Origin: a virus
Length of the DNA: 64,000 bases
IMG/VR virus record: IMGVR_UViG_3300008267_000013
Location: 1 to 64,000 of that record
Strand: one strand, 5' to 3'
Shown: piece by piece, positions 7,311 through 64,000 of the stretch
Numbering within the stretch: position 1 is the stretch's first letter
Layout of the letters: the number at the start of each line of letters is the position of its first letter
Program-made: the position numbers and the translations under genes
Notes under the pieces: model-generated
What the model saw: the letters and a program-made list of their open reading frames with translations, nothing else
What the model was told of the DNA's origin: nothing
Databases searched by the model: none

Positions 7311-7350
7311 GTTGGGAGATTTACCAACCTACCAACGAGGAGAAACACAC

Positions 7351-18031: not shown

Positions 18032-18042
18032 AGGATAAAAAT

Positions 18043-19161: not shown

Positions 19162-19169
19162 ATAAAAAT

Positions 19170-19227
19170 CCAGTAGAGTAATCTCGTTTAGTAACTAATT
19201 ATATTATCGAGATTACTCTACTGGAGG
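19170..19227 (+). promoter_or_regulatory. 17-bp perfect inverted repeat masking the SD of the endonuclease
   Basis: CCAGTAGAGTAATCTCG (19170-19186) is exactly complementary to 19208-19224. The right arm runs into the SD GGAGG (19223-19227). The 21-nt loop contains ACTAATTATA, a possible internal promoter element. Long transcripts would hide the SD, while RNAs started in the loop would not. Confidence 0.75.
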
Positions 19228-19234
19228 TTATACA

Positions 19235-20212
19235 ATGGAATGGAAAATCTATAAAATAACAAATTTGATAAATAATAAAATTTATATAGGTCAGACAAAA
19301 AACTCTATAAATGAAAGATTTAAAGGACATTGTACAGCTGCCAGACAAGGTATAAAATATAGATTTTATTATGCAATAAGAAAACATGGCGAAGAAAATT
19401 TTAAAATAGAACTTCTAGAAATAGCAAATTCAATAGAGGAAGCCTGTGAACTAGAAAAGAACTACATTAAAAAATATCAATCAACTCATCCGAGCATTGG
19501 ATATAACGCTACCAGTGGAGGCACAGGTGGTTGGATGATCGGAAGACTATCTGAAGAAGAACAAAATTTATGGAAAGATAAAGTTTCTAAAGCTAATACA
19601 GGCGAGAACAATTCTACATATTGCGGTACAACTGATGAAGAATTAATAAATTTATTAGTAAAATTTACTGAAAAATACAAATATATATGTGGTTTGCTAC
19701 CGCTGGTAGGGTTTGGGATAGAAAATGGTATAGATGTTCCCAAATCATTTACAAAGTTTAGATTTGATGGGAACTATGAAAATTTAGTTAAAGAAGTTGA
19801 ATTAAGAACTGGTATTAAGGCTGATGCGTATCCAAGAGGTGAAGAAAGAAAAATATCATCATATTATAAAAAACTTTCTTATCAAAAATCGTACAAAAGA
19901 AAACCAAAAATTAAAATAAAATACGAAGACATGATCAAAAACATTAGTAATTCTAAAAAATATGATAAAAATCCGCAATTTTGTGGAACAACCAATGAAA
20001 CACTAATAGAATTAGTAGAAAAATTCTATAAAGAATTTAATAAATTTCCAACACACAAAGAATTAATACTTTATGGGAAACATGAAAATATAAATGTTCC
20101 AACCGGGTTTACAGAAAGTAGATTTGGAGGAAAATTTATAAATTTAATTAAAATTGTAAATTTAAAGTATAATTTAAGCAAACCGGAGGCCGATAATGGC
20201 ACTGATAATTGA
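19235..20212 (+). CDS. GIY-YIG homing endonuclease between the split nrdA halves
   Basis: 325 aa. The N-terminal GIY-YIG domain reads K-I-Y-K-I-T...I-Y-I-G-Q-T, with R-F-K-G-H following. After it come two related repeats beginning with C-G-T-T-(D/N)-E. The second copy is fuller and includes F-P-T-H-K-E-L and F-G-G-K-F. These repeats look like a DNA-recognition module. Its 3' end overlaps the start of the intein C-fragment gene by 17 bp and contains that gene's SD (GGAGG). Confidence 0.9.
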   Translation: MEWKIYKITNLINNKIYIGQTKNSINERFKGHCTAARQGIKYRFYYAIRKHGEENFKIELLEIANSIEEACELEKNYIKKYQSTHPSIGYNATSGGTGGWMIGRLSEEEQNLWKDKVSKANTGENNSTYCGTTDEELINLLVKFTEKYKYICGLLPLVGFGIENGIDVPKSFTKFRFDGNYENLVKEVELRTGIKADAYPRGEERKISSYYKKLSYQKSYKRKPKIKIKYEDMIKNISNSKKYDKNPQFCGTTNETLIELVEKFYKEFNKFPTHKELILYGKHENINVPTGFTESRFGGKFINLIKIVNLKYNLSKPEADNGTDN

Positions 20213-20297
20213 AGAAATGGAAGAAGAAATTCCAGTATACGATATAACGGTGGAAGATAATCACAATTTTTATGCAAATGGCATTCTAGTACATAAC
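20196..20297 (+). mobile_element. Split intein, C-fragment (34 aa)
   Basis: Block F V-Y-D-I-T-V-E-D-N-H-N-F and block G I-L-V-H-N end at the junction with the +1 Cys (20298). Length and motifs are those of known naturally split inteins. Confidence 0.92.
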
Positions 20298-21230
20298 TGT
20301 TCGGAAATCTTTCTCTTCAACGATCAAGATCATACATTTGTTTGTTGCTTATCAAGCGTAAATCTTGCACGATACGATGAGTGGAAAAATGATCCACTAT
20401 TCCTAAAAGACTGTATCTATTTTCTAGATGGAATCATGGAAGAATTTATTCGCAAAGCACGTAAGATTGAAGGATTTGAGAAGGCTGTAAGATTCTCAGA
20501 AAAAAGTCGCGCACTTGGTCTTGGCGCTCTTGGATGGCACACCCTGTTGCAATCAAAACTAATTCCATTTGATTCATATCAAGCAATGATGCTGAATGCA
20601 GAAATCTTCCGCAAGATGGATCGTCTAACACTAGAAGCTTCAAAAGAATTAGCAGTATTAAAAGGGGTACCAGAATGGTGCATGGATACACGTAACAGTC
20701 ACCGATTAGCAATTGCACCAACTGTGTCTAATTCATTAATCTCAGGCGGTGTAAGCCAAGGGGTTGAACCTATTATTGCTAATTATTACGCTCAAAAAAC
20801 TGCAAAAGGTTCTTTTATCAGAAAAAATCCTGCACTTGAAGTACTACTTAAATCAAAAGGTCTAGATAGTTTTGATACATGGCAACAAATAAATGCAGAT
20901 GGCGGCAGTGTAAGAAATGTTAAAGGCTTGAGTGATCTTGAGAAAGAAGTGTTCTTGACCGCAAGAGAGATCAACCAACATACTATTATCAAGCAGGCTG
21001 CACAACGTCAAAAGTTTATTGATCAAGGACAAAGTATCAATCTATTCTTTACAACCCCAGCATCACTAAATTCTGATGACAAGAAGAAACTAGGCAAGTA
21101 CATTCACGAAGTGCATCTAGAGGCCTGGAAACAGGGTCTAAAGAGCCTATACTACCTACGTGGTGAGTCAGTCCTTAAATCAGATAGTGTCTATCGTAGT
21201 AGCGGTGAATGTAAGGCTTGTGAAGGATAA
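20196..21230 (+). CDS. nrdA: Split intein C-fragment fused to NrdA C-terminal part
   Basis: 344 aa. Residues 1-34 are the intein C-fragment, and residues 35-344 are the NrdA C-extein (310 aa). The joined NrdA would be 576 aa, well under E. coli NrdA (761 aa). The +1 Cys of the extein (C-S-E-I) aligns with the thiyl-radical cysteine of class I NrdA (C439 in E. coli). A second active-site Cys follows in C-C-L-S-S-V-N. The Y-Y pair for radical transfer is in S-L-Y-Y-L-R, and a C-terminal C-x2-C (E-C-K-A-C-E-G) handles re-reduction. Splicing is required to build the active site. Confidence 0.93.
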   Translation: MALIIEEMEEEIPVYDITVEDNHNFYANGILVHNCSEIFLFNDQDHTFVCCLSSVNLARYDEWKNDPLFLKDCIYFLDGIMEEFIRKARKIEGFEKAVRFSEKSRALGLGALGWHTLLQSKLIPFDSYQAMMLNAEIFRKMDRLTLEASKELAVLKGVPEWCMDTRNSHRLAIAPTVSNSLISGGVSQGVEPIIANYYAQKTAKGSFIRKNPALEVLLKSKGLDSFDTWQQINADGGSVRNVKGLSDLEKEVFLTAREINQHTIIKQAAQRQKFIDQGQSINLFFTTPASLNSDDKKKLGKYIHEVHLEAWKQGLKSLYYLRGESVLKSDSVYRSSGECKACEG

Positions 21231-45381: not shown

Positions 45382-45409
45382 CCACCGCATAGAAATGTGC
45401 GGTGGTTTT
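45382..45409 (+). terminator. Intrinsic terminator
   Basis: CCACCGCA (45382-45389) pairs with TGCGGTGG (45398-45405), followed by TTTT. It lies before the acyltransferase-like gene. Confidence 0.85.
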
Positions 45410-45423
45410 CTATTTATTACAGC

Positions 45424-46119
45424 ATGAAATTATATTTCAATCACGAAATGGGTTTTGGTAAGATGATGCATGAAACAATGCTTTATTATCCATTTGGTGC
45501 AACATTTGAACCACATGAGCGTTCACACGCATTGGAAACAGGTTGGTTCCCCATTAATAATGTTATGTGGTTTCAAAGCCGCTCAACAAGAATAAACTTA
45601 AAAAAGTATTCACCATCGGAGAAAGTGTTAAAGCTTTCAAAGAGCATAAAATATTATCCAGATGTCAATATGACACCTGTTAAAAAAGCGCGTCTCCAGG
45701 AGATATATGATAAATATGTCCAACATAAAGGTTTCCGCGATTTATCATTAACAGTTGATGATATGATTGCAAACTCAAGCGGACATGTGTATTATGTACA
45801 CAATAACAAGATAATAGGTTTTACATTCTATAAGATAATCGGCAAGAATTATCTCTCAATAGAGTTTGCTTGGGATTATGAATTACCAAAGTTATCACTT
45901 GGACATGTTAGTATATATTTTGAAAGTCTGTTTGCAAAAACGCAGCGTTGCGAGTATATGTATCTCTCTGCTGGTTATGAGTCATGCTCGCTTTATAAAG
46001 CAGACTATAAAGGGTTTGAGTGGTGGAAAGGGTATGAGTGGTCAGATGATGTTGACAAGTTCAAGAGCCTATGCTACATTGATGAGCAAGTGAAGATCTT
46101 GAACTTTGAGAGCACATGA
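45424..46119 (+). CDS. Aminoacyl-tRNA-protein transferase (ATE/Bpt)-like GNAT protein
   Basis: 231 aa from the ATG just after TCTATTTATT. F-Q-S-R-S-T-R-I-N-L and the Y-S-P-S-E-K-V-L-K-L segment resemble the W-x2-S-R-S-x-R-I core of arginyl/leucyl-tRNA-protein transferases. The later H-V-Y-Y-V...I-G-F-T-F and Y-L-S-A-G-Y-E fit the GNAT-like second half. Such enzymes add an amino acid to protein N-termini and mark them for degradation. It may modify host or phage proteins. Confidence 0.55.
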   Translation: MKLYFNHEMGFGKMMHETMLYYPFGATFEPHERSHALETGWFPINNVMWFQSRSTRINLKKYSPSEKVLKLSKSIKYYPDVNMTPVKKARLQEIYDKYVQHKGFRDLSLTVDDMIANSSGHVYYVHNNKIIGFTFYKIIGKNYLSIEFAWDYELPKLSLGHVSIYFESLFAKTQRCEYMYLSAGYESCSLYKADYKGFEWWKGYEWSDDVDKFKSLCYIDEQVKILNFEST

Positions 46120-51351: not shown

Positions 51352-51583
51352 CATTACAGAAGATGGCAAATACTATGTTTCAACTTCTAGTTCTCAGCAA
51401 AACTGGGAGACCAAGGTGTTTATGATTGATAAGGATGGCAAGATGCTCTTTGATGTTGCTCTTGAGGAAAAGAATTATTCCAACGAACACGAGGCTGATG
51501 TTGGTCACAAGAAGGTTCTTGCAAAATGGTGTGGCAGAATCGACGCCGAGGAAGAGTTGGGTATAGGGGAAGGCGGTTATTGA
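51338..51583 (+). CDS. Small protein, paralog of 50088
   Basis: 81 aa with SD AAGGAG. Shares W-E-T-K-V-F and the H-K-K-V-L-A-K-W helix with the 50088 protein. The C-terminus is acidic and Gly-rich. Its TGA overlaps a TTG start of the first array gene. Confidence 0.7.
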   Translation: MAQRNITEDGKYYVSTSSSQQNWETKVFMIDKDGKMLFDVALEEKNYSNEHEADVGHKKVLAKWCGRIDAEEELGIGEGGY

Positions 51584-51765
51584 TTTTGTTTGTTCCCGGT
51601 GATATTGTAGAGAAAAAATATAAACCATTTCGTCTTATAAGGCACTTTATGGTTGTCGAAGGTGAACATCCTTATTATAACTGTTATGATATTGATAGTG
51701 AAAACTTCGTAAAAAATATCCTTCTTTCTAATACATTGTTGTGGAAAGTTGAAAAATTAGCCTAG
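51580..51765 (+). CDS. GDI-family protein 1 of the array (TTG start)
   Basis: 61 aa. P-G-D-I-V-E-K starts the barrel and it ends K-L-A. No ATG fits; the TTG overlaps the upstream TGA as TTGA. SD-like GAAGGCGG is upstream. Confidence 0.6.
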   Translation: MILFVPGDIVEKKYKPFRLIRHFMVVEGEHPYYNCYDIDSENFVKNILLSNTLLWKVEKLA

Positions 51766-51774
51766 GTTTATAAT

Positions 51775-52002
51775 ATGTATAATACAGGTGATATTCTAGA
51801 AAGAATTATAATAAGTAACATAGATAGAATGAATCCTATATTTAGAGATGACAATATACATTTCTTGATAGTTGATAAAAGAGAATATTTTCTAGAAGTA
51901 TCTGGCAAGTGTGCAGTTATTTACACACTTATGTCACTAAAGACCAATCAACATCACACAATCAGTTTGAGAGATACACGTAATTGGAAAAAAGTAGCAT
52001 AA
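51775..52002 (+). CDS. GDI-family protein 2
   Basis: 75 aa. T-G-D-I-L-E-R, then H-F-L-I-V, Y-T-L-M-S-L and the ending W-K-K-V-A. It shows the full family pattern. Confidence 0.7.
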   Translation: MYNTGDILERIIISNIDRMNPIFRDDNIHFLIVDKREYFLEVSGKCAVIYTLMSLKTNQHHTISLRDTRNWKKVA

Positions 52003-52018
52003 TAGGTGACACCATGAG

Positions 52019-52228
52019 ATGGAGCAGGAAGAAAAGATAAACGGAGTTGGCGATATAATAGTAGAATGTTATATGAATAGCGTTCGCGGCGAGCAACATT
52101 ATATTATAATAGATCAAAACTATTATCAATATGAATTACTGCCACTAAATGCAGCCAATAAAGATTATCAATCATCGTTCCTGTTATTAAAAAGTACGGT
52201 TGTCATGTATTATATAAGAGTCGCTTAA
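52019..52228 (+). CDS. GDI-family protein 3
   Basis: 69 aa. V-G-D-I-I-V-E, H-Y-I-I-I, ending I-R-V-A. The stop TAA overlaps the next ATG (TTAATG). Confidence 0.66.
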   Translation: MEQEEKINGVGDIIVECYMNSVRGEQHYIIIDQNYYQYELLPLNAANKDYQSSFLLLKSTVVMYYIRVA

Positions 52229-52617
52229 TGAGATATAACATAGGAGATGTTATAGAAGCAGATTATGTATCGCATAAGCAAATATATTACATTAAAGATA
52301 TAATAGCAGATGAATACATACTAAGAACAATAGATGGTGATTTACAAAGAGATCTTCATTGTCTGCTAACAAATGTTAGCAATATAACGTACAAAAAGGT
52401 TGATATGTCGCTTACTAAAGATATGATGATATCAGTAGATTCAGAAATTCAATATTATAGCAACCAAGAACTAATTACTTATAATATATCATATACTGAA
52501 TTAAACAATAAATATCCTAATTCTTATTTTAAATACAGAGTAGATCGTAGTACAGAAGAGCTATTAACCAGAGGATTAGAACCATCTGATGCCAGTAAAA
52601 GCAGAGGTGATAGTTAA
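52228..52617 (+). CDS. GDI-family protein 4, extended
   Basis: 129 aa. I-G-D-V-I-E-A starts the barrel, which ends near Y-K-K-V at residue 55. A further 70 residues of unknown type follow, perhaps a fusion with a second unit that lost its start. Overlaps the next gene by 29 bp. Confidence 0.62.
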   Translation: MRYNIGDVIEADYVSHKQIYYIKDIIADEYILRTIDGDLQRDLHCLLTNVSNITYKKVDMSLTKDMMISVDSEIQYYSNQELITYNISYTELNNKYPNSYFKYRVDRSTEELLTRGLEPSDASKSRGDS

Positions 52618-52792
52618 TGTAGGTGATATTATTAAAGTAAAGAGTGCTGAAACAGAATTCAGTGGCCTCTACCTAGTATTAGAAATAAAATCAACTCAAG
52701 GAATAAAAATATATAATCTGCAGGATCTAAGATTCCCAGACACATTCTGGACTTTTTTTAGCGATGATGATATATTGGAAATACTGGCGTAA
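52589..52792 (+). CDS. GDI-family protein 5
   Basis: 67 aa. V-G-D-I-I-K-V, L-Y-L-V-L, ending I-L-A. It starts inside the previous gene. Confidence 0.62.
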   Translation: MPVKAEVIVNVGDIIKVKSAETEFSGLYLVLEIKSTQGIKIYNLQDLRFPDTFWTFFSDDDILEILA

Positions 52793-52795
52793 AAA

Positions 52796-53032
52796 ATGAT
52801 GCCTTCACACGATAGATTAAGAGAAGTAAGATACGATGTGGGCGATCTTGTCAAACGTTATAATATGCTTGACTCGGATAAAGAGGCCACATCATGCGTA
52901 TATTTAATACTAGCTGTAAATATCGATGAAGAAGGTTGGGTCTGGTACTACTGCTACAGTTTCGGATCAGGTACATATCGTGAATTTTTGATGGATGATA
53001 ATTCCGCTCGTAAATATGTTAAATTAGCGTAG
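52796..53032 (+). CDS. GDI-family protein 6
   Basis: 78 aa. V-G-D-L-V-K-R, V-Y-L-I-L, Y-Y-C-Y-S and the ending Y-V-K-L-A. ATGATG start 3 bp after the upstream stop. Confidence 0.66.
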   Translation: MMPSHDRLREVRYDVGDLVKRYNMLDSDKEATSCVYLILAVNIDEEGWVWYYCYSFGSGTYREFLMDDNSARKYVKLA

Positions 53033-53044
53033 AAAAGAGGACAT

Positions 53045-53260
53045 ATGCGTAAATTTAAAGATGGTGATAAGGTATCTGTTAAATCGTGTGAAGAATTAGA
53101 GATGCCATGCAGCGTTGAGGGTCTTGATGATTGGATTCCAAAATTAACCTCTTTGGATGGTCGTACTATTTATATGTATAAAGTAACTGGTCGTCACGCA
53201 AAGCGCGGTAATGCAGTATCGGTTCGCGTATCAGAAAGTCAATTAGAACTTTGGAGTTAA
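53045..53260 (+). CDS. Small barrel-like protein in the array
   Basis: 71 aa with SD AGAGG. D-G-D-K-V-S-V replaces G-D-I, and it lacks the K-V-A end. It is more like a KOW/SH3 domain and may be a distant member. Confidence 0.6.
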   Translation: MRKFKDGDKVSVKSCEELEMPCSVEGLDDWIPKLTSLDGRTIYMYKVTGRHAKRGNAVSVRVSESQLELWS

Positions 53261-53261
53261 T

Positions 53262-53447
53262 ATGAAAAGTTTTGAGTTGGGTGATATTGTACATGATTTT
53301 GAATATGACCAATATTATCTAATCACACACATTAAACAATCAGATACATATAAGTACCTGTATTCATTGATGGATTTAGAAGATTCATCAAGAGTTATAG
53401 GGGCATCACTAGCAAATCTTAAAAAATTATACAAGAAGGTAGCATAA
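53262..53447 (+). CDS. GDI-family protein 8
   Basis: 61 aa, one of the shortest complete units. L-G-D-I-V-H-D, Y-Y-L-I-T, ending Y-K-K-V-A, encoded by AAG-AAG-GTA-GCA. Confidence 0.68.
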   Translation: MKSFELGDIVHDFEYDQYYLITHIKQSDTYKYLYSLMDLEDSSRVIGASLANLKKLYKKVA

Positions 53448-53448
53448 A

Positions 53449-53604
53449 ATGAGCTCCGAAAGATGGATAAGATTGATATTATCATCCATAGTTGGAGCAA
53501 CTGCTTATGTAATTATAGCAGTTATATACACGCATTATAAAACTCACGATAAATATACGGTCTATAATAAGTCGCCGCTAACAATAGGGCCGTATAAAAA
53601 ATGA
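53449..53604 (+). CDS. 51-aa single-TM protein
   Basis: ATG 1 bp after the upstream stop. The segment S-I-V-G-A-T-A-Y-V-I-I-A-V-I-Y is a TM helix after a basic start, with a polar C-terminus probably outside the cytoplasm. Its TGA overlaps the next ATG. It is an insertion in the GDI array. Function unknown. Confidence 0.58.
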   Translation: MSSERWIRLILSSIVGATAYVIIAVIYTHYKTHDKYTVYNKSPLTIGPYKK

Positions 53605-53822
53605 GCAACGAGCGAATATTTAAGCCGGGGGATATAATAAAGTATATACCAGACAAAGATAGCAAGATAAAAGAAGCCTTTGAACAGGAACTATATATAG
53701 TTATATCAGCTGGTCCTTATATATTTGAAGAGGGTTTCCAAATGGTTGAAAAAATGCATCTGATATCTGGTGTTATACAGATGCGTCCCATAATGATTAA
53801 TAGATGGGAAATATTGGCTTGA
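53601..53822 (+). CDS. GDI-family protein 9
   Basis: 73 aa. P-G-D-I-I-K-Y, L-Y-I-V-I, ending W-E-I-L-A. Both ends overlap neighbours (ATGA, TTGA). Confidence 0.66.
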   Translation: MSNERIFKPGDIIKYIPDKDSKIKEAFEQELYIVISAGPYIFEEGFQMVEKMHLISGVIQMRPIMINRWEILA

Positions 53823-53995
53823 AGTTTAGAGTAGGTGATATAATAAGAGCAATCAATAAATCAACTGGTATATATGTTCACTTCCTAATTTATAGGATTG
53901 AAAAGTGGCACTATGTAGCTTACTGTATTGAAGATGGTATGCCAAGCGTATCAATCAGTCCAATATACGATAATGATTTTGAAAAGGTTGCTTAG
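53819..53995 (+). CDS. GDI-family protein 10 (TTG start)
   Basis: 58 aa. K-F-R-V-G-D-I-I-R, H-F-L-I-Y, ending F-E-K-V-A. The TTG overlaps the upstream TGA, as at 51580. No closer ATG exists. Confidence 0.62.
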   Translation: MKFRVGDIIRAINKSTGIYVHFLIYRIEKWHYVAYCIEDGMPSVSISPIYDNDFEKVA

Positions 53996-54016
53996 ATCAG
54001 TAAGTTGTGCTATAGT
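53988..54016 (+). promoter_or_regulatory. Sigma-70-like promoter
   Basis: TTGCTT (53988-53993), 17 bp, TATAGT (54011-54016), 30 bp before the TM protein gene. The -35 overlaps the K-V-A codons of the previous gene. Confidence 0.55.
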
Positions 54017-54046
54017 ATTTAAACTAACTAACTCAAGGAGGAAAAT

Positions 54047-54271
54047 ATGAGCAAAGTTAGCATCGTACTAAGTATTGCCGTTGGATTGTGGTCAGCGACT
54101 GCTCTTGGAGTCGGTACCGCATGGTTGTTCAGTAGAACTAGACCAGTACAAGTTGTAAGACTCGACAATAACTGTGTAACTGTTCAGCAGGGTATGTTTC
54201 ACCGACTAGAATGTTATAACAGCAATGTTCCACCTCATGATCCCGTGGAACAGATTGGTTATGCAGAGTAA
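54047..54271 (+). CDS. Single-TM protein with Cys-containing tail
   Basis: 74 aa with SD AAGGAGG. Residues 4-28 are hydrophobic (I-V-L-S-I-A-V-G-L-W), followed by a polar tail with two Cys. It has its own promoter and a perfect terminator. Topology suggests the tail faces the periplasm. Function unknown. Confidence 0.62.
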   Translation: MSKVSIVLSIAVGLWSATALGVGTAWLFSRTRPVQVVRLDNNCVTVQQGMFHRLECYNSNVPPHDPVEQIGYAE

Positions 54272-54297
54272 TAATAAATAGATATAGCCAATTCAGC

Positions 54298-54326
54298 GGC
54301 TGGTGTGTGAACACCAGCCGTTTTTA
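54298..54326 (+). terminator. Intrinsic terminator
   Basis: CGGCTGGTG pairs perfectly with CACCAGCCG around a TGTGAA loop, followed by five T. It ends the TM-protein transcript and is followed by a new promoter. Confidence 0.92.
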
Positions 54327-54334
54327 TTATCTGC

Positions 54335-54363
54335 TTGACAACAAACATACGTTGACCTATACT
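54335..54363 (+). promoter_or_regulatory. Sigma-70 promoter giving a leaderless mRNA
   Basis: TTGACA (54335-54340), 17 bp, TATACT (54358-54363). The ATG at 54373 is 9 nt after the -10, within 2-3 nt of the expected start of transcription. No SD. Confidence 0.78.
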
Positions 54364-54372
54364 ATCAACACG

Positions 54373-54600
54373 ATGGATACACCACAGGTTGGCGACATAT
54401 GGAAGAACAACTGGTCAAGTAACCTCAACACACATAATTGCGGCGAAACTCACTACCTATTGATAAAGAAGGTAGAGCCCGACAACTCCAAGGATACAAA
54501 GTGGGTAGCATTTTCTTATAAGAGATATAAGGAAGTACTCATCTATATTGATAACTATTCAAATGAGATAGTTACAAATAGTTTCACAAGGGTATCTTGA
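54373..54600 (+). CDS. GDI-family protein 11 (leaderless)
   Basis: 75 aa. V-G-D-I-W-K-N, H-Y-L-L-I, ending T-R-V-S. The longer upstream frame would include the promoter, so this ATG is chosen. Confidence 0.7.
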   Translation: MDTPQVGDIWKNNWSSNLNTHNCGETHYLLIKKVEPDNSKDTKWVAFSYKRYKEVLIYIDNYSNEIVTNSFTRVS

Positions 54601-54601
54601 T

Positions 54602-54784
54602 ATGCTATCATCAACTATAGAACCTGGTGACATCTGGAAGAATGATAACTCACAATTCCATAATATCATTATTGAACCCGACATCGTAAACCCTTGGTGG
54701 ATTACATGGGTTATTGAATTGGGCGAATATAATCTCTATCATAAAGATGATTTTGATATGCGTTGGTGGAGGAAAGTAGCATGA
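54602..54784 (+). CDS. GDI-family protein 12
   Basis: 60 aa. P-G-D-I-W-K-N, H-N-I-I-I, ending W-W-R-K-V-A. The start motif is nearly the same as in protein 11, so they are probable sister copies. The stop overlaps the next ATG. Confidence 0.68.
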   Translation: MLSSTIEPGDIWKNDNSQFHNIIIEPDIVNPWWITWVIELGEYNLYHKDDFDMRWWRKVA

Positions 54785-54984
54785 GTAGCAGAGACGCAAA
54801 GTGGGATGTTGGCGATATTATCAGAGAAGAATGGGGTGACGAATCAAGGCATTTCCTAATAATGAGTGTATGTTTGTGGGAAACAAGTATTGATACTTAT
54901 GAGTGTCGTGTTTTAGAGACAGGACAAACCATGAACATAACTCCACATTATAGTCCACCAAACATGTTGAGAAAAGTCGCATGA
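54781..54984 (+). CDS. GDI-family protein 13
   Basis: 67 aa from the ATGA overlap. V-G-D-I-I-R-E, H-F-L-I-M, Y-E-C-R-V-L-E-T-G, ending L-R-K-V-A. Confidence 0.7.
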   Translation: MSSRDAKWDVGDIIREEWGDESRHFLIMSVCLWETSIDTYECRVLETGQTMNITPHYSPPNMLRKVA

Positions 54985-55205
54985 GGACTCTTAAATTCAG
55001 CATCGGAGATATCATAACACGCGGCAAGCCACACCATGATATGTTCAAAGATAATTGGCGTAAGTTCTATCTTATACATGATATAATCTATGAAGAAGAG
55101 CAAAAAGAATATAGATATTGTTTATACAGTTTCCAAACAGGTTCTTGGAGCGGCTATTTCCCAGCAGGTGAACTTGTAGAACCTTTTCTATTCAAGGTAG
55201 CCTAA
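54981..55205 (+). CDS. GDI-family protein 14
   Basis: 74 aa. I-G-D-I-I-T-R, F-Y-L-I-H, Y-R-Y-C-L-Y-S-F-Q-T-G, ending F-K-V-A. Stop CCTAATG overlaps the next start. Confidence 0.7.
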   Translation: MRTLKFSIGDIITRGKPHHDMFKDNWRKFYLIHDIIYEEEQKEYRYCLYSFQTGSWSGYFPAGELVEPFLFKVA

Positions 55206-55360
55206 TGAATCCACAAGTTGGTGACATATGGAAGATAGGAGATCACTATCATTATCTTGTCTTAGAAGAGAGACTTGACTACTGGGGGGAGAAGCAGTAT
55301 TATATGTACATCCTTGAGAGAGACATGTACGACTGCCTCTCATTAGATTTAATAGAGTGA
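55205..55360 (+). CDS. GDI-family protein 15, shortened by TGA
   Basis: 51 aa. V-G-D-I-W-K-I, H-Y-L-V-L, ending at TGA. The eight codons after the TGA read W-N-G-T-K-V-V-stop in the same frame, like the usual family ending (W-x-x-x-K-V-A). The TGA probably replaced a TGG (Trp) codon. Confidence 0.6.
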   Translation: MNPQVGDIWKIGDHYHYLVLEERLDYWGEKQYYMYILERDMYDCLSLDLIE

Positions 55361-55384
55361 TGGAATGGTACAAAAGTGGTGTAA

Positions 55385-55594
55385 ATGTCTAAACCTCATC
55401 AAGTTGGTGATGTTGTCATGGTTGAAAATGACTGGATTGCTTATGAGAATGGTAGTTTGGTTTACGAAACAGGACAAAATCATTATCTTATACTTGAACG
55501 CTGCGATTATACCTGTACCTATACAACGATTCATCTGCAAAGCGGCAAGCATATCCTTACAAGTATGTTAGATAACGCAACAAAGGTCGCCTAA
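55385..55594 (+). CDS. GDI-family protein 16
   Basis: 69 aa. V-G-D-V-V-M-V, H-Y-L-I-L, ending T-K-V-A encoded by AAG-GTC-GCC before TAATG. Confidence 0.68.
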   Translation: MSKPHQVGDVVMVENDWIAYENGSLVYETGQNHYLILERCDYTCTYTTIHLQSGKHILTSMLDNATKVA

Positions 55595-55830
55595 TGGAAC
55601 TCAAGAATATCCTACTTCTCGATAAAAACAAGAAAGTGTATTATACACATTATGAAGTTGGAGATATTCTTAGACACGAAGCAGAAATTAGTGCTCATTA
55701 TCTGGTAGAAGATATACGCGTAGAAGATAATCTTGGAGTTTACTCGCTTAGAGTTCTTGAAAATAACGATATCTTTTCATGGGACGTAGAAATAGTAGAT
55801 AAAGCCCGCAAAATCAAGAGGGTCGCATGA
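55594..55830 (+). CDS. GDI-family protein 17
   Basis: 78 aa. A longer N-terminal lead precedes V-G-D-I-L-R-H. H-Y-L-V-E, ending K-R-V-A. Stop overlaps the next start. Confidence 0.68.
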   Translation: MELKNILLLDKNKKVYYTHYEVGDILRHEAEISAHYLVEDIRVEDNLGVYSLRVLENNDIFSWDVEIVDKARKIKRVA

Positions 55831-56027
55831 TGGAACACCAATACGAGCCCGGTGATATTCTTGCAGTTGATGAACCTTGGTCCAATGAAACATTTTATTA
55901 CTTGATAGAGGGTGAGCTTGATTCTGTTCATGCGTACATGGAATTAATGTATCCTTACCGCTGTCTAAGTGATGGCAAGACAGGATGGGGTAAATTCAAT
56001 GCGCCTTCAACAAGGAAAGTCGCATGA
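55827..56027 (+). CDS. GDI-family protein 18
   Basis: 66 aa. P-G-D-I-L-A-V, Y-Y-L-I-E, L-S-D-G-K, ending T-R-K-V-A. Confidence 0.68.
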   Translation: MMEHQYEPGDILAVDEPWSNETFYYLIEGELDSVHAYMELMYPYRCLSDGKTGWGKFNAPSTRKVA

Positions 56028-56209
56028 TGAATATGTTCCAAATAGGTGATATAGTAAAATGTACAACTACTAACATGATAGAACACATGCTCATACTTGA
56101 CACACAACCAGACTACTGGTATATTGTCCTGTGTCTAGAATCCGGCTTTACAAAAACACATAAGATGTGGCCGAATCAAATCCCAAGAGTATATATGAAG
56201 GTCGCATGA
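56024..56209 (+). CDS. GDI-family protein 19
   Basis: 61 aa. I-G-D-I-V-K-C, H-M-L-I-L, L-C-L-E-S-G, ending M-K-V-A. Confidence 0.68.
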   Translation: MMNMFQIGDIVKCTTTNMIEHMLILDTQPDYWYIVLCLESGFTKTHKMWPNQIPRVYMKVA

Positions 56210-56412
56210 TGTTTAAAACCAAGTATCAGATTGGCGACATTATCGAGGGTAGTCACATACCTGGCGCAAAAATACACCTGCTAATTGAAAACATTACCTA
56301 TATGGGCAAGAAGCCATTTGAGTATTGTGTACGGAATCTTGAAGAAGATTTGATATATGAAAAGTCAGTAGAAAGAACCGATAAAAGTCTTTATTACAAC
56401 AAGGTTGGCTAG
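56206..56412 (+). CDS. GDI-family protein 20
   Basis: 68 aa from the ATGA overlap. I-G-D-I-I-E-G, H-L-L-I-E, ending N-K-V-G. Its stop TAG runs directly into the promoter of the next unit. Confidence 0.68.
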   Translation: MMFKTKYQIGDIIEGSHIPGAKIHLLIENITYMGKKPFEYCVRNLEEDLIYEKSVERTDKSLYYNKVG

Positions 56413-56413
56413 C

Positions 56414-56442
56414 TTGACAACCCTAACCTCTTGCGCTACTAT
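56414..56442 (+). promoter_or_regulatory. Sigma-70 promoter giving a leaderless mRNA
   Basis: TTGACA (56414-56419), 17 bp, TACTAT (56437-56442), then 6 nt to ATG 56449. No SD. Confidence 0.72.
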
Positions 56443-56448
56443 ACAACC

Positions 56449-56673
56449 ATGACGCCACGATACGAACCCGGCGATATCCTTCACCATTCAGGTATGGAAG
56501 GTATTGAGTTTTATTGTTTGGTGATGGACGTTGAGACCGTATCAAACTGTATTATAAACGGTAACTACGAACATCGTAGAATTTATACTCTTCTTTGTAT
56601 GGATGACGGAGAAGTGTATAGATTCAATACAGCAAACATTGATTGTAGTGTTTATTATAGGAAGGTTGCGTAG
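56449..56673 (+). CDS. GDI-family protein 21 (leaderless)
   Basis: 74 aa. P-G-D-I-L-H-H, F-Y-C-L-V-M, L-C-M-D-D-G-E, ending Y-R-K-V-A. First copy of the tandem duplication. Confidence 0.72.
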   Translation: MTPRYEPGDILHHSGMEGIEFYCLVMDVETVSNCIINGNYEHRRIYTLLCMDDGEVYRFNTANIDCSVYYRKVA

Positions 56674-56674
56674 C

Positions 56675-56703
56675 TTGACAACCATCACTTCTTGAGGCAC
56701 TAT
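56675..56703 (+). promoter_or_regulatory. Sigma-70 promoter giving a leaderless mRNA
   Basis: TTGACA (56675-56680), 17 bp, CACTAT (56698-56703), then 6 nt to ATG 56710. Copy of the element at 56414. Confidence 0.7.
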
Positions 56704-56709
56704 ACAACC

Positions 56710-56934
56710 ATGAAGCCCCGATACGAACCCGGTGACATCCTTTATCATCAAGGCAGCGGCTTTGGTGAATTTTATTGTTTAGTTATGGATATCGAACACA
56801 AGACAAGACCAGATCCAAGAGGTAGAAAGTGGCCTTTTGATGTCTACGTTCTTCTTGGTATGGATGACGGCGAGACTTATACAATAAGTACTCAAAATAT
56901 TGACTGTAGTGTATACTATAAAAAGGTTGCATGA
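56710..56934 (+). CDS. GDI-family protein 22 (leaderless)
   Basis: 74 aa, second copy of the tandem duplication. P-G-D-I-L-Y-H, F-Y-C-L-V-M, L-G-M-D-D-G-E, ending Y-K-K-V-A, then ATGA. Confidence 0.72.
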   Translation: MKPRYEPGDILYHQGSGFGEFYCLVMDIEHKTRPDPRGRKWPFDVYVLLGMDDGETYTISTQNIDCSVYYKKVA

Positions 56935-57137
56935 CAAAGTATCAGATAGGCGATATCATCCGTGTTGAAGTTTCTCACAGAGAAGAACCACTCATCTTCT
57001 TGATTGAAGATATTATAAATGAAAATCGGCGCGATGCCGCCCTATATTGTGTTAGAGATTTAGAATCAAACGAGACAAAGAAAGTGTTTAGCAACACCCT
57101 AGATAAACGCGATCTAACCGTTTGGAAGGTGACCTAA
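56931..57137 (+). CDS. GDI-family protein 23
   Basis: 68 aa. I-G-D-I-I-R-V, I-F-L-I-E, Y-C-V-R-D-L-E, ending W-K-V-T. Resembles protein 20 (56206) over the start and middle. Confidence 0.68.
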   Translation: MTKYQIGDIIRVEVSHREEPLIFLIEDIINENRRDAALYCVRDLESNETKKVFSNTLDKRDLTVWKVT

Positions 57138-57331
57138 TGGAACCTCAAACTGGGGACATATGGGAATACAATTTCGACACACCAGATTATCACTTAACAT
57201 ATAACCTGTTGGTGCTAGGGAGCGGCATCATGTTCAGCAATTATTATCTGTGTCTTATACTAGAAACAGGTAGCATACAAGAGGCAAGTTTCATGCCAAC
57301 ACCCAAAGAAACATACGAGAAGGTTGCATGA
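57137..57331 (+). CDS. GDI-family protein 24, last of the array
   Basis: 64 aa. T-G-D-I-W-E-Y, Y-N-L-L-V, L-I-L-E-T-G, ending Y-E-K-V-A. Its ATGA leads into a frame that stops after two codons, as if the next unit had been deleted. Confidence 0.68.
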   Translation: MEPQTGDIWEYNFDTPDYHLTYNLLVLGSGIMFSNYYLCLILETGSIQEASFMPTPKETYEKVA

Positions 57332-57392
57332 TTTAAAAAACGAATAGGTAGAAGAAGTAGGAGGACGGGGGGGTCACAAAACCAAAGAAGGT

Positions 57393-57402
57393 ACTATTTA
57401 TA
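57393..57402 (+). promoter_or_regulatory. ACTATTTATA motif, possible promoter of the RNA below
   Basis: An exact copy of the motif found at 31483, here in non-coding DNA, directly upstream of the structured region. Confidence 0.4.
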
Positions 57403-57409
57403 TATAGAA

Positions 57410-57695
57410 AACAAAGATAGGTTCCATGCTGAGAAGACGCACGGTGATCACCACAAAAGAAAAGGTGATCCACAGCCAAGCGGACGCATGGACTGTGTCC
57501 ATCTTCAAAGTGCAAACGAACCAGTTGATGGACGCCGGAAGCAGGATCTGAACCCTGAACCGGCTAAAAAGAGAATGAAAAACCCCACAGTCCACAGGGC
57601 GTGGAACCCCTGATAGTTTTCAAGAGGCGGCAATCACCAGGGACAAAAGATTGCTGACCACTTGGTTGGACAGATCAACTGGGGGTTTTGTTATT
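57410..57695 (+). ncRNA. Possible second structured RNA
   Basis: No coding potential. Pairings: GATCACC (57446-57452) with GGTGATC (57464-57470); GTCCATC (57497-57503) with GATGGAC (57527-57533); AAAACCCC (57579-57586) with GGGGTTTT (57682-57689); and GCAATC (57630-57635) with GATTGC (57649-57654). The last helix side ends in GGGGGTTTTGTT, which could terminate. It is distinct in sequence from the RNA at 50335. Confidence 0.45.
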
Positions 57696-57768
57696 AAACT
57701 AAAAGCTGGTTAGGCCCATGGTGCTGATGATGGAGCCGCAAACTAACAAACAAAAAAAGATCCAGCCA

Positions 57769-57882
57769 CCAGTAGAGGTAGGAGGACCAGTCCCAGTCAT
57801 AGAAGTAGAAGATCCTGGAGAGAGGTGAGGTATAGCACTACAAGTAGAGTAGGATAAGCACTAGTGCCAGTAGAGGTAGGAG
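57769..57882 (+). repeat. Purine-rich repeats
   Basis: CCAGTAGAGGTAGGAG occurs exactly at 57769-57784 and 57867-57882. Around them (57740-57975) the + strand is dominated by A and G with many AGTAGAG/GGTAGG variants. No gene is seen. The strand bias could allow triplex or R-loop formation. Confidence 0.7.
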
Positions 57883-58228
57883 TATACCAGGAGGGGAGGG
57901 AGTAGAGGGGAAACAAATAGATCCCATACCCACCCATCCATAAGGTAGAGGGAGTAGGGGGAGGGGTATGACTAGGTAAAGTTCTATAGCAAACCCAGTA
58001 TAATAAAAAGTGGACGAGATGGACCGGCGAAGCGGTCCTGCTCTCCCAGTTGAGGAAGAGGAAAGAATCAGATGCTAGTAAATAAGCATACTGCCCTTAT
58101 ACAATAGGTTGTGGTAATTGAAAAAAAGGTATACAATTGCTTATTATAAGTTATTATCTACTGGTTAAATGTGGCAATTGGTGTCAAAGCGGGGCAAGAA
58201 GTGGCATCGAGTGCCAACACAGCTTTAG

Positions 58229-58411
58229 CCCTTATTTTATAGGGTTTTCGAACAAGCCCATCCGGAAACCCCTTATTTTAAGCTAGATTGTGATAAATTT
58301 TATTTTTATAACATGGATCCCCTATAGATTAAGACATAATAGAATAGCCCCTTCACCATTAAGCCTAAAATAAGGCAAAACGTGATTTCACAAAATGCCT
58401 TAAAATAAGGC
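58229..58411. repeat. Four iteron-like palindromes plus AT-rich flank
   Basis: Related imperfect palindromes at 58229-58244 (CCCTTATTTTATAGGG), 58271-58282 (CCTTATTTTAAG), 58363-58376 (GCCTAAAATAAGGC) and 58397-58411 (GCCTTAAAATAAGGC). An AT-rich stretch follows at 58431-58464. This could be a replication origin, or binding sites for a repressor. Confidence 0.55.
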
Positions 58412-58555
58412 ACTTCCGAATATTAGACGTATATGTTGAATATATGATAAATATATATTATATGCGGCACCCCTACTCTAATAAATTTAGTATACCACCG
58501 ATGTTGGCAGGTGTCCAGTAGCGTCTATTCAATAGATATGGAAAAAGGGTAAAGG

Positions 58556-59966: not shown

Positions 59967-61139
59967 TTAACCCTTCTTGCTATTCTTCACTTCAACAACA
60001 ATCTCGTTTGTCTGGAAGTATGGACTCTCCTTACCGGCACGGTCAGTCATCCACATACGTCGGACACGGCAAGGAACAGGCGCAGGAGCCTGCATATCGG
60101 TTAAAACAATAAGCCCATCAATTTCGGGGTGCTTGTTGACCCACTTGGTTGGTGCATCGAAGTCGGTGCCGCCGCACATAACACGCTCAGTCCTGTGCTT
60201 CTGTCCTTTCTTCCATTCATACACCAGCTTATCGCCTACCTCAGTATCAAAAGGTACAACGGTGAAAGTTACCAGCTTCGACAGACCATTCAATTCAGCA
60301 AAGAACATGGAAAGCATCTCGTCGCTAACAGAACCGCTCTGGTCAATAGCAATTGCAATATGTGCAGAATGGTTTGTCTTGCGACCGGGATGGATATATG
60401 GGAACCGCTTGTTGATACGCTTGATTGTGTTGGAACGATTCGCCCGCTGTGCGTTGCCAATAAAGTTGCGGAGGATTGCACGCCAATCAACCGATCCGTT
60501 GACGAATTGCAGGATCGCCCGCTTAACGTCCTCGTGCATATTGCCGAATCCACGGCTAGACTTGGAGGCTTCCTCGACGCCCTTCTTCATAGCCTCACGC
60601 AGACGCTCCCGTGCAATAGCCTTGCTGTCACCGTTCGCCTCGTTCTCTCCCCATCCATCGTGATCGTCAAAGGAATCCTGACCATCACCAAAGTTGGGAT
60701 CATTCTCTGCCTTCTCCTCCAACAGCTTCATATATTGTTCAGCCGAGAGGTAATCATCGAAACCAAACTTGGACGGGAAAACACCAAACTCTGGAATCTC
60801 GTCCTTGATATGGCAGTTGATCGACATATCAGTTGCCATGTTCCACATACGGCTCACTTGCTTGCCATCAGGGTTGCGGCTCAATACGTGTTCAAAGATC
60901 AAGTGGTAGAACTCATGCTTGAGAACACCCGTTCGCTGCTTGTCGGGCAATCCATCAAAGAACGCTTGGTTGTATGCCATATCAAAGAAGCCGTCATCGG
61001 TGATACGAACACCAGCAGTAGGAATATTATTGTTAGGGTGCTTGTTGACAGACCGGCTCATAGCAGCAAAGAATGGCTCCTCACGCAGAAGCCGGAAAAC
61101 ATCATGCTCAAGGTTGTAGTCGCTCAAGGTTGTCTCCAT
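59967..61139 (-). CDS. VWA domain / putative metallopeptidase (DUF2201-like)
   Basis: 390 aa. The N-terminal part has a zinc motif K-H-E-F-Y-H (H-E-x2-H) near residue 74 and F-E-H shortly after. The C-terminal VWA domain has the MIDAS start D-Q-S-G-S-V-S (about 269-275), with a later T-D and D-M-Q. This is the DUF2201 architecture that pairs with MoxR ATPases. The linker (about 150-185) is acidic and Gly-rich. The start codon sits at the foot of a GCCGC/GCGGC hairpin, with no clear SD. Confidence 0.85.
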   Translation of the reverse strand: METTLSDYNLEHDVFRLLREEPFFAAMSRSVNKHPNNNIPTAGVRITDDGFFDMAYNQAFFDGLPDKQRTGVLKHEFYHLIFEHVLSRNPDGKQVSRMWNMATDMSINCHIKDEIPEFGVFPSKFGFDDYLSAEQYMKLLEEKAENDPNFGDGQDSFDDHDGWGENEANGDSKAIARERLREAMKKGVEEASKSSRGFGNMHEDVKRAILQFVNGSVDWRAILRNFIGNAQRANRSNTIKRINKRFPYIHPGRKTNHSAHIAIAIDQSGSVSDEMLSMFFAELNGLSKLVTFTVVPFDTEVGDKLVYEWKKGQKHRTERVMCGGTDFDAPTKWVNKHPEIDGLIVLTDMQAPAPVPCRVRRMWMTDRAGKESPYFQTNEIVVEVKNSKKG

Positions 61140-61910: not shown

Positions 61911-62102
61911 CTAAGCAGCTATATAGAACGGATTGTCGGGTAGGTCAAGTCCAAAAGGGCTTGTGTAGGTTGAATACGTCCCATCGTTCAATACATAGAT
62001 ATGTAGCTGGTGGACATCGTTTGGATATACCTTATCCTCATAGATTAACCAGTATGTCCCATCATGCTTTCTACATAGGATATCACCAACTTGGACCATC
62101 AT
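61911..62102 (-). CDS. GDI-family protein, minus strand 1
   Basis: 63 aa. V-G-D-I-L-C-R, Y-W-L-I-Y, Y-V-L-N-D-G, ending Y-I-A-A. The ATGATG overlaps the stop of the upstream gene. Confidence 0.68.
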   Translation of the reverse strand: MMVQVGDILCRKHDGTYWLIYEDKVYPNDVHQLHIYVLNDGTYSTYTSPFGLDLPDNPFYIAA

Positions 62103-62434
62103 GCCTTGCCCTTGTGGTTAGCTACACCAGAAAAGGTTGCCACAGTTTCGAACTTGATACCAGTTTCCTTGGCACGATATGCCAATTGACAGTTCTTACC
62201 TGTATTCAGGCCGCTATTAGCCGCCCAATAACGGAGGTAGTCTTTTCTATCATCCTGTGATTGGAACCGCAAGATCTGGACTTGGGCCTGCTTACCCTCT
62301 CCAGAAGAGATACCAGCATAACGAACAGTAGACTCCTCAGAACAAATTTCACAATGGGTGGAGAGGCCACCAGCACGACGCTTGGCAGGCGAACGATGAT
62401 CAAACTGTTCGCCGCACACTTGACAGGTTCTCAT
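62099..62434 (-). CDS. Zinc-finger protein, unknown
   Basis: 111 aa from the ATG with SD GGAGG; a GTG 15 bp upstream overlaps that SD. C-Q-V-C-G near the start and H-C-E-I-C near residue 30 form a zinc ribbon. The C-terminal part contains Y-L-R-Y-W-A-A-N-S-G-L-N. Ends K-G-K-A, with AAGG again as SD for the next gene. Confidence 0.68.
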   Translation of the reverse strand: MRTCQVCGEQFDHRSPAKRRAGGLSTHCEICSEESTVRYAGISSGEGKQAQVQILRFQSQDDRKDYLRYWAANSGLNTGKNCQLAYRAKETGIKFETVATFSGVANHKGKA

Positions 62435-62622
62435 GCTAACTTCCTCCACTTAATTCTTTCAAACTGATTATCCAAGTCCATGAACCAATCCCCAACCTCA
62501 CCATCTTCAAGTTTCAAGCACAGATGGTAATCGAGATCATCGATATAGTCAAGCACAAGCAGGGTGGCAGTTCCATACTGGGGATAACTATATTCCCAGA
62601 TGTCACCAATGTTGACAGTCAT
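62431..62622 (-). CDS. GDI-family protein, minus strand 2
   Basis: 63 aa. I-G-D-I-W-E-Y, T-L-L-V-L, L-K-L-E-D-G, ending W-R-K-L-A. Closest in start to proteins 11, 12 and 24 of the array. Confidence 0.7.
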   Translation of the reverse strand: MTVNIGDIWEYSYPQYGTATLLVLDYIDDLDYHLCLKLEDGEVGDWFMDLDNQFERIKWRKLA

Positions 62623-62807
62623 GCCAGCACCTTAAACTCTGCCATGCCAAACTGGTATCTAACGTTTCTACCATTAGTCAGCGAGATAGTATCGTAAATA
62701 TATCCATCTACATCCTTATCAAGCCTGACAATAAGAAAAATATTATCGTCTCTATCCCAATCGTACTGGACAATATCCCCGACATGGCACAGCGGTTCGT
62801 TGCTCAT
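62619..62807 (-). CDS. GDI-family protein, minus strand 3 (leaderless)
   Basis: 62 aa. V-G-D-I-V-Q-Y, I-F-L-I-V, ending F-K-V-L-A. Six nt separate its ATG from the -10 box, so the mRNA should be leaderless. Confidence 0.72.
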   Translation of the reverse strand: MSNEPLCHVGDIVQYDWDRDDNIFLIVRLDKDVDGYIYDTISLTNGRNVRYQFGMAEFKVLA

Positions 62808-63131: not shown

Positions 63132-63647
63132 CTATCTTTTCTTGCTCAGACGTTCTTTTTTCTTTTTTTCATTATTGGCAGATTTGCATAATTCACACCT
63201 ACATTTTCTATATTGATAGGTATTAGGTGTTCCGTGAACCCAAGTAGAGGGATCACTTGTTGTACCACCTCTGGTGGTTACTTGTTTTGTCTGTCCGTAT
63301 TTTCCGGCACACTCTCTAGAACAGAATGGACCAGCTTTGCCCTTCTTAATGTTTCCTCTTACATCACGCGCTTCTCTTATAAATTCTTTTTCACAAAGTG
63401 GACAAATATGTTTACTAAGTTCAGCAATAGGAGCGTGCATCCTACTATGTTCTTCTCTTGATAGTATCTCTAGGTTCTCTATCCTATTATCTAGTTTGTT
63501 TTCATTTAGATGATGCACAACTTCATCAGTAGTCAGTCTCCTACCAATATGTTGTTCCATAATCCAACGATGTTCTAGATAATATCTAGATTTACCATCT
63601 ATCTTAACGCAAATATACTTGTAACCTTCTTTAGAAACGTGTGGCAT
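63132..63647 (-). CDS. HNH homing endonuclease in the tRNA cluster
   Basis: 171 aa. The N-terminal HNH domain reads L-E-H-R-W-I-M-E-Q-H-I-G-R, D-E-V-V-H-H-L-N-E-N-K and D-N-R-I-E-N-L. The C-terminal part has two Cys pairs (C-P-L-C and C-S-R-E-C) and a final C-R-C-E-L-C, likely zinc fingers for DNA recognition. It sits between tRNA-Leu and tRNA-Arg. SD AGGAGG is masked by an inverted repeat. It could promote spread of the nearby group I intron or of itself. Confidence 0.9.
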   Translation of the reverse strand: MPHVSKEGYKYICVKIDGKSRYYLEHRWIMEQHIGRRLTTDEVVHHLNENKLDNRIENLEILSREEHSRMHAPIAELSKHICPLCEKEFIREARDVRGNIKKGKAGPFCSRECAGKYGQTKQVTTRGGTTSDPSTWVHGTPNTYQYRKCRCELCKSANNEKKKKERLSKKR

Positions 63648-63652
63648 AATTA

Positions 63653-63711
63653 CCTCCTATTAGCCCCTCTACCATAATTAGTTAGTTGTGGCGGAAAAGG
63701 CTAACAGGAGG
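63653..63711 (-). promoter_or_regulatory. SD-masking inverted repeat before the HNH gene
   Basis: Minus strand: CCTCCTGTTAGCC (63711-63699) pairs with GGCTAATAGGAGG (63665-63653), 12 of 13 bp, covering the SD AGGAGG. The loop has ACTAATTATG (63682-63673). Confidence 0.7.
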
Positions 63712-63716
63712 TGTCA

Positions 63717-63768
63717 TGGTCCCAGCTGAGCGAGTCGAACGCTCAATCCCGTAAGGGCGGTTGATTTT
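63717..63768 (-). tRNA. tRNA-Leu(UAA), 3' exon only in window
   Basis: Starts with AAAATCAACC, so the intron splits the anticodon between U34 and A35. A variable arm (GCCC/GGG), T arm GAGCG/CGCTC with loop TTCGACT, acceptor 3' AGCTGGG, discriminator A and CCA follow. The 5' exon lies beyond 64000. Confidence 0.85.
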
Positions 63769-64000
63769 CTTACCACTTCAGCTTTCGCTGCCATCTTTCG
63801 ATGTTTGTGGTCTGGACTATGCCTTCACCTTTTAATCTTTCGATCAGTCAGGTGGGTGCCGTCTAGTCTCTACACGTTCTAGATATTTCTATCTAGCTTC
63901 GCTCGGCGTTGCCAGTTAAGGGTTCACCGAATTTGACACCATTCAGATAGAGGATTTCGCCTCTACTGCTCAATTAAATAAGTCAACTGTGTATGCCATT
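63769..64000 (-). other. Group I intron in tRNA-Leu(UAA), 3' part
   Basis: On the minus strand the conserved core elements are readable: P/Q near 63917-63901 (CTTAACTGGCAACGCCGAGC), R near 63875-63855 (GTGTAGAGACTAGAC), and S near 63823-63814 (GGCATAGTCC). Two GAAA tetraloop hairpins follow, and the intron ends with G at 63769. The position is the same as that of the cyanobacterial and plastid tRNA-Leu(UAA) introns. No ORF inside the visible part. Confidence 0.9.

Follow-up and report, generated by a model that had tools for sequence, protein, structure and literature searches.

The stretch of DNA analysed here, the window, comprises bases 1-64000 of the 87,792-base virus record IMGVR_UViG_3300008267_000013, and at 51580-57331 it carries a tandem array of small genes whose products share a Gly-Asp-Ile (GDI) start and, in many cases, a Lys-Val-Ala (KVA) end. 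An earlier note on this DNA had picked out these small open reading frames (ORFs) by their GDI start, a strand with two hydrophobic residues before Leu-Ile, an aromatic strand and the K-V-A end, all of which are present as it described. ORFs were listed over the window and the remainder of the record, and the proposed units were then aligned. For the leave-one-out test a profile hidden Markov model (HMM) of 26 units was rebuilt after removal of each unit in turn, and the removed unit was scored against 200 composition-preserving shuffles. All 26 units outscored every one of their own shuffles (15-47 bits vs 14 for the best shuffle). The features of the locus are given below, bits being leave-one-out scores and four-letter strings the C-terminal residues.

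51580-51765, plus strand: unit 1; TTG start overlapping the preceding stop; EKLA; 21.4 bits
51775-52002, plus strand: unit 2; KKVA; 25.7 bits
52019-52228, plus strand: unit 3; IRVA; TAATG overlap with the next gene; 17.4 bits
52228-52617, plus strand: degenerate or fused unit; GDV...KKVD domain at the N-terminus, then a C-terminal extension; best-domain E 0.004
52589-52792, plus strand: unit; EILA; 22.4 bits
52796-53032, plus strand: unit; VKLA; 31.6 bits
53045-53260, plus strand: interspersed non-member, a GDK protein; not among the array HMM matches; 1:1 ortholog (61% identity) in the nearest relative, G001
53262-53447, plus strand: unit; KKVA; 29.4 bits
53449-53604, plus strand: small probable membrane protein, judged from sequence; non-member
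53601-53822, plus strand: unit; EILA; 15.0 bits
53804-53995, plus strand: unit; EKVA; 34.8 bits
54047-54271, plus strand: small probable membrane protein, judged from sequence; non-member
54295-54322, plus strand: terminator-like hairpin; 12-pair stem and U tail
54335-54363, plus strand: promoter-like TTGACA-17-TATACT; 11/12 consensus matches; directly upstream of the second half of the array
54376-54600, plus strand: unit; TRVS; 19.7 bits
54602-54784, plus strand: unit; RKVA; ATGA overlap; 22.0 bits
54781-54984, plus strand: unit; RKVA; ATGA overlap; 37.9 bits
54981-55205, plus strand: unit; FKVA; TAATG overlap; 25.8 bits
55205-55360, plus strand: short unit; DLIE; 29.3 bits; 50% identical to 7348-7533 of the related locus L021
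55385-55594, plus strand: unit; TKVA; TAATG overlap; 22.4 bits
55594-55830, plus strand: unit; KRVA; ATGA overlap; 32.4 bits
55827-56027, plus strand: unit; RKVA; ATGA overlap; 25.3 bits
56024-56209, plus strand: unit, the one modelled; MKVA; 36.2 bits; AlphaFold2 pLDDT 94.3 (see below)
56206-56412, plus strand: unit; NKVG; ATGA overlap with the preceding gene; 22.2 bits
56449-56673, plus strand: unit; RKVA; 47.3 bits; 60% identity to the next unit, the closest pair; promoter-like TTGACA box upstream at 56414
56710-56934, plus strand: unit; KKVA; ATGA overlap; 46.7 bits
56931-57137, plus strand: unit; WKVT; TAATG overlap; 39.5 bits
57137-57331, plus strand: last array unit; EKVA; no gene directly after; 26.9 bits
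58686-59747, minus strand: MoxR-like AAA ATPase, synteny anchor; Pfam AAA_5 2e-9; PHROG 1297
59967-61139, minus strand: DUF2201 metallopeptidase/VWA-like MoxR partner, synteny anchor; Pfam PF13203 and PF09967
61911-62102, minus strand: unit outside the main array; 17.9 bits
62431-62622, minus strand: unit outside the main array; RKLA; 22.3 bits
62619-62807, minus strand: unit outside the main array; KVLA; ATGA overlap with 62431-62622; 24.4 bits

The 26 family units of the record comprise 22 in the array, three on the minus strand at 61911-62807 and one beyond the window, a minus-strand unit just past its end (65855-66067 of the record); the N-terminal half of 52228-52617, with a weak HMM match, comes in addition. 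In a core-only test, in which 47 units including relatives were stripped of GDI and of their four C-terminal residues and each was compared with 100 shuffles, 41 of the 47 ranked first of 101 and 46 were in the top 6. The weakest member, 53601-53822, passed the leave-one-out test and not the core-only test. As the cores are still recognised without GDI and KVA, the family is real and independent of its shared ends; the units form one homologous family. The earlier note was thus right in its claim of a single family, to which its three minus-strand units indeed belong. The array of 24 paralogs that it described is real, but holds 22 clear units and the degenerate or fused one, its three interspersed genes being non-members; likewise the expansion to about 30 relatives is real, but comes down to the 26 units that pass the HMM. 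Its further relatives upstream, at 41746, 46116, 47769, 47981 and the C-terminus of 50731 (in gene 50722), dropped out, as they fail the array HMM (E 0.17-2.2). Each of the first four has a single syntenic ortholog in G001 with 37-59% identity, and the last (E 2.1) has no G001 match among those listed. Since these four and 53045-53260 have single orthologs at matching G001 positions, all five behave like ordinary stable genes. The upstream candidates would be at most distant SH3-like cousins, outside the expansion. Scans of viral contigs with one unit or with 53045 as query yielded nothing new.

Ten array junctions overlap as ATGA or TAATG, and likewise one minus-strand junction, which agrees with the near-gapless tandem that had been reported. 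The codons of K-V-A vary synonymously (GTC/GTT/GTA/GTG and GCA/GCC/GCT/GCG) and the motif is kept in the last unit, which has no follower; conservation of KVA therefore acts at the protein level. The idea that KVA is merely a ribosome-binding site was ruled out by these synonymous codons, by the presence of the motif in the last and in non-overlapping units and by a modest Shine-Dalgarno signal. The hairpin at 54295-54322, together with the promoter-like boxes at 54335 and 56414, suggests that the array is divided into two or more transcription units. Near-identical TTGACA-17-TACTAT/CTATAC boxes at 56414-56449 and 56675-56710 end a few bases upstream of start codons, which suggests almost leaderless transcripts.

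Relatives were collected by scanning viral contigs with the neighbouring MoxR protein, which gave 72 loci, and a scan with 50722 added one more (L075), making 73. At least one unit was found in 66 of them, at least three in 60 and at least ten in 36, and a profile of the relatives gave 740 real matches and zero among reversed-sequence decoys. KVA-type arrays occur in two relatives, L003 and L021, and most other loci carry arrays of 'MKVGDLV...LEVISESR' genes, the commonest dialect, called SESR here. Comparison of the KVA and SESR dialects with hhalign gave 88.6% (P 2.6e-6), and the SESR profile matched 56024 (E 1.4e-4) and 62619 (E 3e-4) in the genome of the window. By this profile-profile match and the same MoxR-flanking site, the KVA units can be assigned to the same family as the SESR arrays of the relatives. 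A third dialect, 'GDL...LGMI...WYG...' with an Arg/Lys-rich, helix-like C-terminal tail, was noticed at L011:2679-7311 and L017:3445-7599. The records of the relatives reach ~190-200 kb, and in the near-full-length records searched the start-motif matches listed fall nearly all in one genome region. Searches of cultured phages gave no match by tblastn with two of the own proteins, only distant matches (< 60% identity) with MoxR, and only short matches with a junction 40-mer, the one inspected, in Det7, lying on the opposite strand of a gene; these searches thus turned up no relative in culture. Searches of the open-licence literature brought up no description of an array of this kind. Two contigs binned into a Halobacteriovorax metagenome-assembled genome, PBIO01000016.1 (L196) and PBIO01000025.1 (L198), carry a SESR-type junction; a link to this predatory bacterium as host, drawn through binned contigs, was considered too weak to use.

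In the window the array is separated from the convergent MoxR gene by ~1.2 kb (57333-58530) without convincing ORFs and with many AGTAGAGGTAGGAG-like purine repeats. The arrays adjoin MoxR/VWA genes in most of the loci fetched by MoxR, and one could argue that the units serve the adjoining pair of MoxR AAA ATPase and VWA/metallopeptidase as clients or adaptors, each barrel selecting targets for the pair to load or remodel. We hold this to be quite improbable, as the association is biased by the retrieval of the loci via MoxR, several MoxR loci with ~10-kb flanks (L039, L056, L057 and L067) carry no unit, and the units and the MoxR pair lie on opposite strands in the window, in L003 and in part of L021.

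The SESR end owes its conservation to the neighbouring gene. In all 170 genes of a set selected for SESR-type tails, the GD gene that comes next has its in-phase GTG start exactly 14 nt ahead of the gene end, since AGT GAA AGT CGG TGA (S-E-S-R-stop) read with a shift of one base is GTG AAA GTC GGT GA(T) (M-K-V-G-D). The L-E-V codons ahead of SESR hold GGAGG, a Shine-Dalgarno sequence, and the junction consensus is TTTGGAGGTTATCAGTGAAAGTCGGTGATTTGGT. The exact 14-nt overlap was found at 648 junctions and requires a gene spacing of 1 mod 3, which was seen in 686 of 801 cases, the loci being partly redundant. As the tail is the start of the next gene in another frame, its conservation is a by-product of the overlap, and a role of SESR as protein-level sorting tail was ruled out by the same 170 of 170 genes; such a tail is a trap for motif-based annotation. 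Every SESR gene is thus a cassette between near-identical junctions of ~30 bp.

The one unit modelled, 56024-56209, was predicted by AlphaFold2 from 47 sequences as five strands, with a mean predicted local distance difference test score (pLDDT) of 94.3 and a predicted template modelling score (pTM) of 0.79. Foldseek neighbours of this model were PWWP, Tudor, KOW and designed SH3 structures (probability up to 1.0, no E < 0.001), including the KOW-containing C-terminal domain of kin17 and PWWP complexes with single-stranded DNA, and the viral matches were mostly uncharacterised proteins. We are confident in the fold predicted for this unit, a five-stranded SH3-like barrel, apparently of KOW/Tudor type. 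The SH3/PemK-like barrel proposed in the earlier note stands as to SH3 and is unsupported as to PemK, since no PemK/MazF was found among the listed Foldseek or Pfam matches. Conserved in the alignment are G8-D9 and a set of hydrophobic positions (7, 10, 11, 23, 24, 33, 38 and 60), while most outward-facing strand positions and many loop positions have near-maximal entropy (> 3 bits) and loop lengths vary. A conserved core with a diversified surface is as expected of a common binding scaffold, and is by itself silent on the ligand.

The fold also brings in the main rival to the host-binding reading favoured below, namely that the barrels are KOW-like regulators associated with nucleic acid, RNA polymerase or ribosome, each of which would adjust how genes of the host or the phage are transcribed or translated, in the way of NusG/Spt5 KOW or T4 MotB. 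The SESR profile weakly matches Spt5 KOW (E 9e-4) and NusG KOW (E 0.09-0.12), Pfam KOWx_SPT5 was found in 1 of 47 SESR members (E 0.025), the kin17 and PWWP structures stand among the Foldseek neighbours, and T4 MotB, with its predicted N-terminal KOW domain, binds DNA tightly (PMC7827196). The KVA profile matched no PDB sequence, including no KOW chain. Against such a role, most units of the KVA clade are acidic, with a mean net charge of -3.5, a point against generic binding of nucleic acids, and the alignment showed no conserved surface patch pointing to one common ligand. We consider such regulators unlikely.

To follow the turnover of units, blocks of DNA of at least 90% identity inside arrays were compared. 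Of the block ends 72% had a junction within 30 bp, vs 16% for random positions. With reciprocal comparisons counted separately, 87 of the 164 internal blocks ran from junction to junction, 86 of them spanning exactly one gene. Between L032 and L072, whose neighbouring blocks are 99.5% identical, single cassettes are replaced at two sites and reordered at a third. The one-gene pattern of the blocks is plain from these comparisons, and recombination as the mechanism behind it we infer. For the clade of the window, G001 shares the synteny (GroEL 81%, MoxR 77%, a lysozyme-like gene 72% and VWA 69% identity), and only 2 of the 26 window units find any match in it, at 36-39% identity, no array gene of the family having a clear ortholog. 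Seen indirectly in this way, the turnover of array units appears near-complete between relatives.

These observations bear on whether the copies differ in what they do. If all units did one job, for example as an abundant structural or decoy protein, with sequence drift incidental, the common fold and the signals for coupled expression would be accounted for. The surfaces, however, are hypervariable and differ in loop length, units are replaced by non-orthologous units and not by copies, and identity inside the window array is low (one pair at 60%, the others mostly 20-47% or undetectable), so that such a dosage effect seems to us very improbable indeed.

For the cores of related arrays the ratio of non-synonymous to synonymous substitution rates (dN/dS) exceeded 1 in 0.9% of pairs; it was 0.43 for the 49 closest pairs and 0.23-0.26 for the two larger divergence bins, with a MoxR baseline of 0.12-0.15. 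The cores are under purifying selection, and the diversity comes from whole-gene turnover and old divergence, not from current positive selection within genes. Selection, for which the earlier note had proposed a check, was therefore not found in its positive form; its picture of diversified binding modules keeps the conserved barrel core with high-entropy outward positions and loses positive selection. These values also bear on a quasi-neutral or selfish expansion, in which the repeated junctions ease duplication and shuffling of cassettes and most copies are of little use to the phage. Very fast turnover, a core dN/dS roughly double the MoxR value and highest in the closest pairs, and the fused or degenerate unit at 52228 would fit it. 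The low ratios in the larger bins with so few pairs above 1, the hydrophobic core preserved across extreme divergence and the retention of arrays in 60 of the 73 related loci speak against it, and we give it little credence.

Taken together, the locus is very probably an accessory island, hypervariable in content, in a lineage of large uncultivated tailed phages, built by lineage-specific expansion of one SH3-like barrel. That its products bind host molecules for takeover or counter-defence is, in our estimate, an even call. The best reading overall, for which the chances again appear balanced, is a translationally coupled and rapidly replaced set of small binding barrels serving host takeover or counter-defence. 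The start/stop overlaps would couple translation so that the array genes are expressed together; the short repeated SESR junctions, which encode the tail of one gene and also supply the ribosome-binding site and start codon of its successor, would allow homologous recombination to insert or remove single barrels with the operon kept intact; and each barrel would bind a different macromolecule, mainly proteins, of the host or of rival elements, as a takeover or counter-defence factor. We further propose, tentatively and at slightly less than even chances, that this is an undescribed diversification system, in which dozens of variants of one small SH3-like binder are carried as dual-coded one-gene cassettes and swapped one at a time by junction recombination, a repertoire that would be integrase-free, although no search for an integrase or attC-like sites was made.

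Several points weigh against this reading. The cassette exchanges observed are all from the SESR dialect, and the KVA dialect of the window has no near-identical relative that could show them; breakpoints at gene ends could also reflect selection against broken genes, so junction-directed recombination is a candidate cause of the pattern. The Shine-Dalgarno signal of the KVA dialect is modest, with a mean duplex energy of -3.9 kcal/mol, random positions giving -2.3 kcal/mol. The case for homology between the dialects is based on profile comparison, and the AlphaFold model of the SESR dialect, made from a poor representative, was itself poor (pLDDT 69) and was not relied on. Pfam and PHROGs scans of the units gave no convincing family, only scattered PHROG matches without known function, and for no unit a relative of known function.

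Accessory loci of phages are a main source of counter-defence and host-takeover proteins and usually resemble sets of small ORFs without relation to each other. The present locus is filled by a single scaffold, its variants are recognisable by profile and junction DNA across dozens of uncultivated phages, and single-cassette exchange is visible between near-identical genomes. A large stock of natural binders thereby becomes searchable, and diversification of accessory proteins within an intact operon becomes testable.

Elsewhere in the window, a group I intron match (63789-63990, Rfam 51 bits) adjoins an HNH_3 endonuclease gene (63132-63647), both within 63132-63990 on the minus strand. Judged from their translations, helicase and ribonucleotide reductase genes (13895-16318 and 18025-21230) have apparent intein-like insertions, and a GIY-YIG-like endonuclease ORF (19235-20212) lies inside the ribonucleotide reductase split. 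The gene at 45397-46119 has an arginine-tRNA-protein transferase C-terminal domain (PF04377, E 1e-6), is 80% identical in G001 and may be a phage N-degron enzyme. The product of 6243-7064, with a GLGAAGCN start and a GGGF motif and no PHROG match, is possibly a tubulin/FtsZ-like GTPase.

Among known systems, the KOW, Tudor and PWWP SH3-like barrels (NusG, Spt5, uL24, kin17) resemble the units in fold and in the weak similarity of the SESR profile to KOW; they differ in that the window units have no curated family match, are mostly acidic in the KVA clade and are tandem stand-alone genes, whereas those barrels are one domain of a larger protein. T4 MotB, a DNA-binding early protein, likewise belongs to the accessory proteins of a phage and has a KOW-like domain predicted at its N-terminus (PMC7827196). 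Unlike the units, MotB has two domains, is highly conserved among T-even phages and has no paralog array. Integron and polymorphic-toxin cassette arrays have constant junctions flanking variable one-gene cassettes, which are exchanged as units. Here, in contrast, the junction is coding on both sides through the stop/start overlap and all cassettes have one fold. To our knowledge, the takeover genes of SPO1 are not one expanded family and are without a shared fold, dual-coded junctions or single-gene cassette exchange. The host-takeover module of SPO1 (Herelleviridae) is alike in being a compact cluster of 24 phage genes with largely novel products, of which the characterised ones each target a different host process and act as inhibitors of replication, transcription, division and glycolysis (PMC10531801).

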